A stretch of 64,000 nt of DNA from Vagococcus hydrophili. Lineage in GTDB: Bacteria > Bacillota > Bacilli > Lactobacillales > Vagococcaceae. A program made the translations under genes and the position numbers. Location of the stretch: contig NZ_CP049887.1 of the NCBI RefSeq assembly GCF_011304195.1, positions 2,046,001 to 2,110,000 on the forward strand. The letters run 5' to 3'. How positions within the stretch are numbered: position 1 is the first letter of the stretch; each line of letters starts with the position of its first letter. Below the pieces are notes generated by a model that was not told the DNA's origin, did no database searches, and was given only the letters and a program-made list of their open reading frames with translations. Below are positions 43,651 to 45,972 of the stretch, piece after piece.

Positions 43651-44292
43651 ATGAAACAAGAAATTAAAGTTATGACTGACGAGAAAACAAGGTTAAGTCA
43701 ACACCCAGTTAAGAAAAAGAGAGTCGGTATTTTAGGTGGCGGATTTAATCCGGTTCATATGGGGCATTTAATCATGGCTGATCAGGTCTGTCACCAACTA
43801 GACTTGGACGAATTTTTCTTAATGCCTTCTTATCAATCACCTCATGTGGACAAGAAAGAAACCATTGACTCTGAAGAACGAGTTGAGATGCTCAAATTAG
43901 CCATTAATGATAATCCAAAATTAGGCTTAGAGCTAACAGAGGTGGTTCGAAAAGGTAAAAGCTATACCTATGACACCATGAAATCACTCGTTGAAGCTAA
44001 TCCAGACATTGATTATTATTTTGTGATTGGCGGAGATATGGTAGAATATTTACCTAAGTGGCACAAAATAGATGAATTAATGAGAATGATTCATTTTGTA
44101 GGTGTTGAAAGGGTAGGCTCTAAAAAAGAGACACCTTACCCAATTATTTGGGTAGATATGCCCTTAATTGAAATCAGCTCCAGTGATATCCGAAAAAAAT
44201 TGACTACTGGTTGTTCTGTCAAATACTTTTTACCTGAGAATGTGTTAAACTATATTCATAAAAAAGGATTGTATCAAAATGGAATACAGTAA
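43651..44292 (+). CDS. nadD: Nicotinate-nucleotide adenylyltransferase
   Basis: A 213-residue NaMN adenylyltransferase of the NAD pathway. GGGFNPVHMGHLIMA carries the nucleotidyltransferase HxGH motif, and ISSSDIRKK is the ISSTxIR phosphate-binding motif. I chose ATG 43651 after TAAGGTGAG; an in-frame GTG at 43642 overlaps the site. The N-terminus is about 27 residues longer than a minimal NadD before the first strand. It overlaps yqeK by 14 bases. Confidence 0.95.
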   Translation: MKQEIKVMTDEKTRLSQHPVKKKRVGILGGGFNPVHMGHLIMADQVCHQLDLDEFFLMPSYQSPHVDKKETIDSEERVEMLKLAINDNPKLGLELTEVVRKGKSYTYDTMKSLVEANPDIDYYFVIGGDMVEYLPKWHKIDELMRMIHFVGVERVGSKKETPYPIIWVDMPLIEISSSDIRKKLTTGCSVKYFLPENVLNYIHKKGLYQNGIQ

Positions 44293-44863
44293 GCAGTATA
44301 CAAAACATACAAGAGTAGAACTTACATCACTTGTCGCAGCTCAGATGAGTGATAAACGATTTCAACATGTCTTAAGAGTTGAAACAAAAGCATTAGAACT
44401 AGCTGAAAAATATCACGTTGATTTAGAAAAAGCGAGTATTGCAGCTCTAACTCATGATTATGCGAAAGAAAGACCAGATGAAGAGATGATAGCTATCATC
44501 ATGAATTCTGAAATTGATAACGAGATTATTCGTTATGGTAATAATATTTGGCATGGAGTTGTAGGATCTCGTCTTGTTTTAAAAGAATTAGGCATTTCAA
44601 ATCAAGACATTTTAAATGCTATTGAGTCACACACAACGGGACGCAGTAACATGAGTGAATTAGAAAAAGTTATTTATGTGGCAGATTACATTGAGGAAGG
44701 TCGAAATTTTCCTGTAGTGGAAGAAGCACGAAAAATAGCAGAAGTCAGTTTAGATGAAGCGGTTGCCTTTGAAACCAAACATACCTTGCTTTATTTAATC
44801 AACAATCAAAATAAAATTTACCCCAAAACATTAGAAACGTATAATGCTTGGGTTGTGAAGTAA
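44279..44863 (+). CDS. yqeK: HD-domain nucleotide hydrolase YqeK (Ap4A hydrolase)
   Basis: A 194-residue HD-superfamily protein. HVLRVETKALELA and AALTHDYAKE give the metal His and HD pair, and SHTTG a later metal histidine. Members hydrolyse diadenosine tetraphosphate symmetrically. It overlaps nadD by 14 bases. Its TAA stop is in the same frame as the following rsfS and ends 18 bases before the ATT chosen as the rsfS start. Confidence 0.94.
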   Translation: MEYSKQYTKHTRVELTSLVAAQMSDKRFQHVLRVETKALELAEKYHVDLEKASIAALTHDYAKERPDEEMIAIIMNSEIDNEIIRYGNNIWHGVVGSRLVLKELGISNQDILNAIESHTTGRSNMSELEKVIYVADYIEEGRNFPVVEEARKIAEVSLDEAVAFETKHTLLYLINNQNKIYPKTLETYNAWVVK

Positions 44864-44881
44864 AAATTAGGAGGAATTATT

Positions 44882-45235
44882 ATTAATAGTAATAACATAT
44901 TAGAATTAGTTGTTAAAGCAGCTGATTCAAAACGCGCAGAAGATATCGTAGCATTAGACGTAACACAAGTTTCTTTATTGGCAGATTATTTCGTGGTGTG
45001 TCACGGTAACAGTGATAGACAAGTAATGGCAATTGCTGAAGAAGTTATAGATGTAGCTCAAAAAAATCAAATCCAAGTCAAACGTGTCGAAGGAAAAGAG
45101 TCAGCACGTTGGGTCCTAATCGATTTAGGTGATGTGATTATTCATGTCTTCTATGGTGAAGAAAGAGACTTCTATAATTTAGAAAAACTTTGGTCAGATG
45201 CACCACTTGTTAATATTTCAAGTATGGTTGACTAA
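44882..45235 (+). CDS. rsfS: Ribosomal silencing factor RsfS with apparent ATT start
   Basis: A 117-residue protein that binds uL14 on the 50S subunit and blocks subunit joining in starvation. ILELVVKAADSKRAEDIVALD, DYFVV, GNSDRQV and GDVIIHVFYGEERDFYNLE cover the family domain in full. The first ordinary start in frame (TTG 44978) would delete 32 conserved residues. No ATG, GTG or TTG lies in frame between the yqeK stop and there. AGGAGG (44869-44874) is followed by three ATT codons at 44876, 44879 and 44882; the last, 7 bases from GGAGG, fits best. A sequencing error remains possible. Confidence 0.88.
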   Translation: MNSNNILELVVKAADSKRAEDIVALDVTQVSLLADYFVVCHGNSDRQVMAIAEEVIDVAQKNQIQVKRVEGKESARWVLIDLGDVIIHVFYGEERDFYNLEKLWSDAPLVNISSMVD

Positions 45236-45237
45236 TT

Positions 45238-45972
45238 ATGGCAAGTTATGAAACATTTGCTAAAATATATGATGAAGTCATGGATGAAAATCTATATTTA
45301 GATTGGTTAGAATTTACTTGTCGTCATCTTGATAAAAAACAGCAAAACCTTTTAGAGCTTGCTTGTGGAACAGGTATTTTATCTGTGGAACTAGCCAACT
45401 TAGGCTTTAATGTGACTGGCTTAGATTTATCTGAGGATATGATCACTTTAGCCAAAAAGAGAATTACTGAAGGCGATGAAGGATTATCTTTTCAAACAGG
45501 AGACATGCTTAAATTAACTGAGAAAAACAGCTATGATGCTGTCACTTGTTACTCTGATTCAATTTGTTACATGTCAGATGAAAAAGCAGTAGGCCAGGTC
45601 TTCTCAGGTGTTTATGATGCACTGAATGAAAAGGGGACGTTCATTTTTGATGTTCACTCAATTTATCAAATGGAAGAATCTTTTGCTGAATATAGCTATC
45701 ATTATCAATCAGACGAATTTGCCTTTCTTTGGGAAAGTTATCCAGGTGATTATGATCATAGTGTGGAACACTTTTTAACATTCTTTGTTTCTGATAAAAA
45801 GGGGAAATTTGAGCGTTTTGATGAGCTTCATGAGGAACGAACGTATGAAATTGTAACGTATGAAAAATTACTAAAAGAAGCAGGTTTTACATCGGTTTCA
45901 GTGTATGCTGATTTTGAAGATGCAGCACCGACAGAAGAGTCGAATCGTTGGTTCTTCGTTTGTGAGAAATAA
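45238..45972 (+). CDS. yqeM: Class I SAM-dependent methyltransferase YqeM
   Basis: A 244-residue methyltransferase. LLELACGTGILSVELA is motif I of the SAM fold, GLDLSEDMI motif II, and YDAVTCYSDSICYM the region after strand 4. The substrate is unknown. It starts 2 bases after rsfS with no convincing ribosome site of its own, so translation probably depends on rsfS. This would pass any effect of the unusual rsfS start on to this gene. Confidence 0.9.
   Translation: MASYETFAKIYDEVMDENLYLDWLEFTCRHLDKKQQNLLELACGTGILSVELANLGFNVTGLDLSEDMITLAKKRITEGDEGLSFQTGDMLKLTEKNSYDAVTCYSDSICYMSDEKAVGQVFSGVYDALNEKGTFIFDVHSIYQMEESFAEYSYHYQSDEFAFLWESYPGDYDHSVEHFLTFFVSDKKGKFERFDELHEERTYEIVTYEKLLKEAGFTSVSVYADFEDAAPTEESNRWFFVCEK

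Follow-up and report, generated by a model that had tools for sequence, protein, structure and literature searches.

Conservation of a probable non-AUG start codon of rsfS in the family of Vagococcus hydrophili and a sister family

Where does translation of rsfS begin in Vagococcus hydrophili? We examined a 64-kb stretch of DNA (hereafter the window) in which the rsfS coding sequence occupies positions 44882..45235 of the + strand and encodes 117 amino acids followed by a stop. Between the stop codon of the upstream gene, yqeK, and a TTG at 44978..44980 (+), the frame contains no ATG, GTG or TTG, and reading the in-frame codons confirmed the statement of a preliminary description of this DNA that the first canonical start lies only at codon 33, counting from 44882. 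From 44864 the frame reads AAA TTA GGA GGA ATT ATT ATT AAT AGT AAT AAC ATA TTA GAA, with its three ATT codons at 44876, 44879 and 44882. The same description held that rsfS begins at ATT, that the AGGAGG at 44869..44874 (+) serves it as a Shine-Dalgarno (SD) sequence, and that initiation at the ATT at 44882..44884 (+), separated from the AGGAGG by a 7-nt spacer, yields the normal N-terminus of the protein. These proposals were borne out by the spacing, by profile and structure alignments, and by a genome comparison which strongly supports AUU 44882 and places it in a column conserved among relatives.

Translated from 44882, the product belongs to the RsfS/YbeB/Iojap family of ribosome silencing factors, with matches above the curated cut-offs of both PF02410 (1.2e-34; 118.9 bits, cut-off 21.6; residues 9-104) and TIGR00090 (2.6e-36; 123.8 bits, cut-off 56.9; residues 7-104). 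It aligns with solved chains from B. halodurans and S. aureus (2o5a, 6sj6 and 6sj5) from residue 2 or 3, and V11, A13, K17, L25 and S31, all within residues 1-32, are invariant across 24 aligned RsfS sequences selected from 80 named loci. Judging from the similarity to 2o5a, 6sj5 and 6sj6 and from excerpts of published work (PMC3400551, PMC13246957), this protein would bind uL14 and block subunit joining. One might instead suppose that RsfS starts at TTG 44978 or further 3', the upstream frame being a remnant or a product of yqeK read-through; this TTG is the first canonical in-frame start, and yqeK and rsfS lie in one frame with a TAA between them. However, the TTG lacks an SD sequence, the SD duplex energy being 0.0 kcal/mol there versus -10.2 kcal/mol for ATT 44882 (calculated with an assumed 16S tail sequence). 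Starting there would also drop residues 1-32, with their five invariant positions and their alignment to the solved RsfS chains. Two observations described below speak further against a read-through fusion: in 10 of 100 related genomes a TGA stands in frame three codons 5' of the start column, and the distance to yqeK varies in the sister family. We therefore rejected TTG 44978 as the main start and consider this whole reading very unlikely.

At rsfS, then, the SD sequence has no canonical start at a distance suited to initiation, and the N-terminus of the family is restored from an AUN codon. We asked how often such an arrangement occurs in the window. Among 161 frames (stop-to-stop, at least 60 codons, both strands), two loci have an ATA, ATT, ATC or CTG at SD spacing with the next canonical start at least 10 codons on. 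Given two such loci in 161 frames and a start column conserved in 100 genomes, the rsfS ATT start exceeds chance.

Because the window represents one genome, an error of sequencing or assembly could in principle have produced the missing start codon. We found rsfS in all 14 genomes of the genus, V. hydrophili included; the start is ATT in 10 and ATC in two, while the other two (L005 and L013) carry an ATG one codon 5' of the start column, at the column of 44879-44881. The 13 genomes other than V. hydrophili accordingly show ATT in nine, ATC in two and the upstream ATG in two, which in effect refutes an error and leaves that explanation a negligible probability. The nearest named loci are likewise from Vagococcus, with 81, 80 and 73% identity. 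The preliminary description had raised the prospect of an ATG or TTG at 44879-44884 in sister genomes; ATG does occur there, but in the two genomes just named, as an exception and not the rule.

We extended the comparison to the family of V. hydrophili (f1; 29 genomes, rsfS in 29/29) and, from an order-wide sample of 395 genomes which all contain rsfS, to a sister family (f3; 71 genomes, all read). The sister family appears to be Enterococcus-like, as some of its rsfS contexts match those of named Enterococcus loci exactly (e.g. L160, L044). In these 100 genomes the start column holds ATA in 69, ATT in 15, ATC in 13, AAA in two and TTA in one; a canonical ATG, GTG or TTG occurs there in 0/100. 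Altogether, rsfS starts with ATA, ATT or ATC in 93 of the 100, at the column itself in 92 and two codons 5' of it in L173, where an ATA has the usual SD spacing. The alignment across related Vagococcus and Enterococcus genomes, which the preliminary description had suggested as a check, shows a conserved non-AUG start. The exceptions are the seven genomes with an ATG one codon 5' of the column (L005, L013, L019, L023, L150, L155 and L156). In the sister family an ATA or ATC start is retained in 68/71 genomes.

No canonical codon exists anywhere from -12 to +8 in 67 of the 100 genomes. Among the 33 which have one, seven carry the well-placed upstream ATG, and in the other 26 the codon lies in or 5' of the SD sequence, 2-3 nt past it, or 3' without an evident SD sequence. 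Named loci, which overlap partly with the genome set and were kept out of the 100-genome counts, agree: 28 of the 80 are titled Vagococcus or Enterococcus, and in 24 of these 28 the column is ATA, ATT or ATC, with no canonical codon there or immediately 5' of it, the remainder being three with an upstream ATG (L030, L045 and L077) and one ambiguous locus (L053). Gene start prediction relies on ATG, GTG and TTG, and we predict that finders so limited will shorten RsfS in these genomes or put its start in the wrong place.

The columns around the start help to decide which of the ATT codons is used. Column +2 is Ser in 100/100 genomes. Column -1, aligned with the ATT at 44879..44881 (+) one codon 5' of the proposed start, is variable (Ile 64, Thr 15, Lys 10, Met 7, others; by codon, ATC 52, ACC 13, ATT 12, AAA 10, ATG 7, others), as is column -2 (Ile 47, Thr 24, Phe 12, others). 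Since its aligned column varies, ATT 44879 is the less likely start, even with ATG at that place in seven relatives. Column -3 is the in-frame TGA in the 10 genomes mentioned above.

In order to judge how unusual this column is, we applied the same rule (an ATG, GTG or TTG between -12 and +8 relative to the aligned N-terminus) to the two neighbouring genes and to other families. As controls, yqeK has a canonical start in 97/97 readable genomes of the two families (three were missed) and yqeM in 100/100. Outside these families, in 46 genomes picked by hand and not at random from seven other families of the order, rsfS itself has a canonical start in 45/46, and in 21 of them it lies in the same column. 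That column is ATG or TTG in 8/8 genomes of f8, 5/5 of f4 and 7/9 of f9, which suggests that it is the ancestral start position. The rule can miss starts in divergent genes: five of the eight yqeK genes of f8 (L217-L224) lack a canonical codon in this range, either because their N-terminus has diverged or because they, too, start in an unusual way. Separately, rsfS of one f9 genome, L246, has CTG at the start column with AGGAG 5' of it, and its -12 to +8 range is free of canonical codons.

The weak codon is paired with a strong SD sequence. An exact GGAGG lies 7, 8 or 9 nt 5' of the column in 86 of the 100 genomes and is absent from the 20 nt 5' of it in the other 14. Measured from the start column in all 100, the median SD duplex energy of rsfS is -11.3 kcal/mol (n=100), compared with -8.7 kcal/mol for yqeK (n=97) and -4.7 kcal/mol for yqeM (n=100). 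The rsfS SD sequence is thus stronger than those of both neighbours, and the gene shares the combination of weak start codon and strong SD sequence seen in infC and sigR. We saw no sign of a further regulatory element: Rfam gave zero matches at the gathering score between 42000 and 47500, the RNA fold at the rsfS start was no stronger than in shuffled sequences (z 0.56), and promoter-like (25 versus 23.1) and terminator-like (5 versus 3.2) sites were near their shuffled numbers.

Is the identity of the codon itself under selection? ATA makes up 69/97 of the AUH codons at the start column, but in the rest of these rsfS genes it accounts for 47/1074 (Fisher odds ratio 54, p 1e-56). The p value is descriptive only, since the genomes are related and the counts are not independent. 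We placed the start states on a quick tree built from yqeK, rsfS minus the start column, and yqeM, in which 27/97 inner branches remain open. At least 12 changes are required; four switch between an upstream ATG and an AUH start, and parsimony leaves about eight among ATA, ATT and ATC at the column. On the assumption that a change at the third base yields G one time in three, the chance of zero G in eight would be about 4%. With so few changes, in related genomes, this is modest evidence, suggestive but not proof, of selection against AUG at the start column. The weak start is also dispensable: an upstream ATG is present in 7/100 genomes, by at least four changes on the tree, and the constraint can therefore be lost. 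With ATA, ATT and ATC exchanging and ATG in 0/100 genomes, this column lends itself to testing whether selection acts on the identity of a start codon as a regulatory signal.

The classic gene with such a start is infC, which encodes IF3, and we located it by motif in the same families (G000:C1:1604555-1604764 and relatives L118-L147 and L257-L286; L132 and L138 of f1 and two f2 genomes were unmatched). Its start column is ATA, followed by GCA or GCT, in 27/27 readable f1 and 25/25 f3 genomes, and ATT in two f8 genomes. The SD sequence 9 nt 5' of the ATA is GGAGG, or AGAGG in some f1 genomes. In 27/27 f1 and 24/25 f3 genomes there is also an ATG two codons 5' of the ATA, spaced 3 nt from the SD core; it could be an alternative infC start. 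This extra ATG is absent in L279 (f3) and in L273, an f9 genome which also has ATA. In published excerpts, the infC start is AUA in S. aureus, as determined by Ribo-Ret (PMC13009471), and ATT in Listeria (PMC13068326). Similar to rsfS, then, infC has an AUN start behind a strong SD sequence and a product acting on the association of ribosomal subunits. It differs in that IF3 regulates its own synthesis, and in the extra ATG two codons upstream in f1 and f3. Since RsfS is not the factor which discriminates among start codons, no such autoregulatory loop is expected for rsfS.

We consider it likely that rsfS has a real and old non-AUG start which limits the synthesis of RsfS and exposes it to IF3. 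The position of the start, its wide conservation and its strong SD sequence are established here by comparison of sequences; low output and sensitivity to IF3 we infer from published work. Initiator tRNA would start rsfS with fMet at ATT 44882, the near-perfect SD sequence permitting initiation at a non-AUG codon. The weak codon would hold RsfS, as an anti-association factor which blocks the joining of 50S and 30S subunits, at a low level, and its synthesis would be IF3-sensitive because IF3 rejects non-AUG starts, as at infC. Such sensitivity is plausible by analogy, since excerpts of published work show IF3 discriminating in E. coli and Streptomyces (PMC5472188), and infC has an AUA start in these families. 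In E. coli, RsfS reportedly prevents the subunits from joining and is important during stationary phase and when cells are shifted to poor medium (PMC3400551), and low, conditional synthesis of RsfS therefore makes sense. A role for the rsfS start as a physiological switch is speculative.

It may quite possibly be, instead, that a real non-AUG start merely fixes a low, constant level of the silencer, a protein which could do harm, with IF3 varying too little to matter. Published excerpts lend this idea some support: the relative efficiency of the S. aureus cvfC1 AUU does not depend on the medium, unlike that of the ccpN AUA (PMC13009471), and the Streptomyces study was unable to demonstrate that oxidative stress enhances SigR translation (PMC5472188). 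However, the simplest way to cut output would be a weaker SD sequence, yet that of rsfS is strong, and a strong SD sequence with a weak codon is also the infC arrangement in f1 and f3.

A bolder extension of the IF3-sensitive start, which we advance tentatively and think rather doubtful, is that IF3 and RsfS, acting on the 30S and the 50S side respectively, belong in Enterococcus- and Vagococcus-like bacteria to a single regulon of anti-association factors defined by AUA, AUU and AUC start codons. When free 30S subunits outnumber IF3, infC and rsfS would be derepressed together and the subunits held apart; when IF3 is in excess, both genes would be shut down. In E. coli without RimM, the two anti-association factors IF3 and RsfS are reported to increase jointly (PMC13246957); this concerns another organism and does not count as evidence of control through the start codon. 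One possible wiring of such a joint rise would be a start-codon class common to both genes.

How does rsfS compare with other known non-AUG starts? The E. coli gene pcnB reportedly starts with AUU, and it resembles rsfS as a case in which a non-AUG start limits the expression of a cellular enzyme, in a different protein and phylum. Closer relatives are found in S. aureus, where excerpted text describes extended SD motifs at the infC AUA, cvfC1 AUU and ccpN AUA starts, and where cvfC1, ccpN and citZ reporters give about 10% of the AUG value, ccpN reaching up to 30% in rich medium (PMC13009471). Like rsfS, cvfC1 and ccpN have conserved non-AUG starts in the Bacilli with extended SD sequences, and their reporters stay below AUG (PMC13009471); their starts were identified by ribosome profiling, whereas our route to the rsfS start was comparison alone. 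The terms rsfS and silencing factor occur zero times in that paper (PMC13009471). Streptomyces sigR, which has a GTC start and is repressed by IF3, is a case besides infC in which the start codon brings a gene under IF3, and its SD sequence is extensive (PMC5472188). It differs from rsfS in having GTC instead of AUN and in that its repression by IF3 was shown by experiment. In Listeria, reporter activities follow the order ATG > ATA > ATT, and six conserved genes are reported to have fixed non-canonical starts, infC and rnhC among them (PMC13068326).

Very few bacterial non-AUG starts have been characterised experimentally, as the sigR paper notes (PMC5472188). Excerpts of a paper on the structure of S. 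aureus RsfS (PMC7125091) make no mention of the terms N-terminal, start codon, beta-strand, dimer interface or IF3. Among the full-text matches listed, in a search mostly outside subscription journals and with sources seen in excerpt, there was no report of a non-AUG rsfS start. IF3-sensitive non-AUG starts are a known kind; within the literature searched, neither the rsfS case nor its presence across two families appears to have been described.

The neighbours of rsfS offer one more way to account for its start. The upstream gene yqeK encodes an HD-domain protein (44279..44863, +), and its TAA stop (44861-44863) lies 18 nt 5' of the rsfS start codon. Ribosomes ending yqeK might therefore restart at the ATT, making the weakness of the codon a minor matter and letting RsfS track YqeK. 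The short distance fits this within f1, where the yqeK stop lies 12-24 nt 5' of the rsfS column in 27/29 genomes. In f3, however, this spacing is anywhere between -8 and 401 nt, though the ATA or ATC start stays in 68/71; coupling to yqeK is thus not a general reason for the rsfS start. The strong SD sequence of rsfS also suggests independent initiation, and we regard re-initiation as an improbable explanation. Downstream, a methyltransferase gene occupies the place of yqeM (45238..45972, +), its ATG lying 2 nt past the rsfS stop (45233-45235). This gene is possibly coupled translationally to rsfS, as the preliminary description had proposed in firmer terms; the 2-nt gap and the weak yqeM SD sequence fit such coupling. 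Since that SD sequence is weak across f1 and f3, translation of yqeM may depend on that of rsfS.

The window also contains a second candidate for a non-canonical start. In a GNAT acetyltransferase gene (PF00583; 8734-9180, +), the homologous N-terminus begins at ATC 8734, with GGAGG 8 nt 5' of it; a canonical codon follows only after 25 codons. Among the three closest relatives aligned from the genus, the corresponding column is ATA in L290, whereas an ATG stands one codon 5' of it in L288 and L289.
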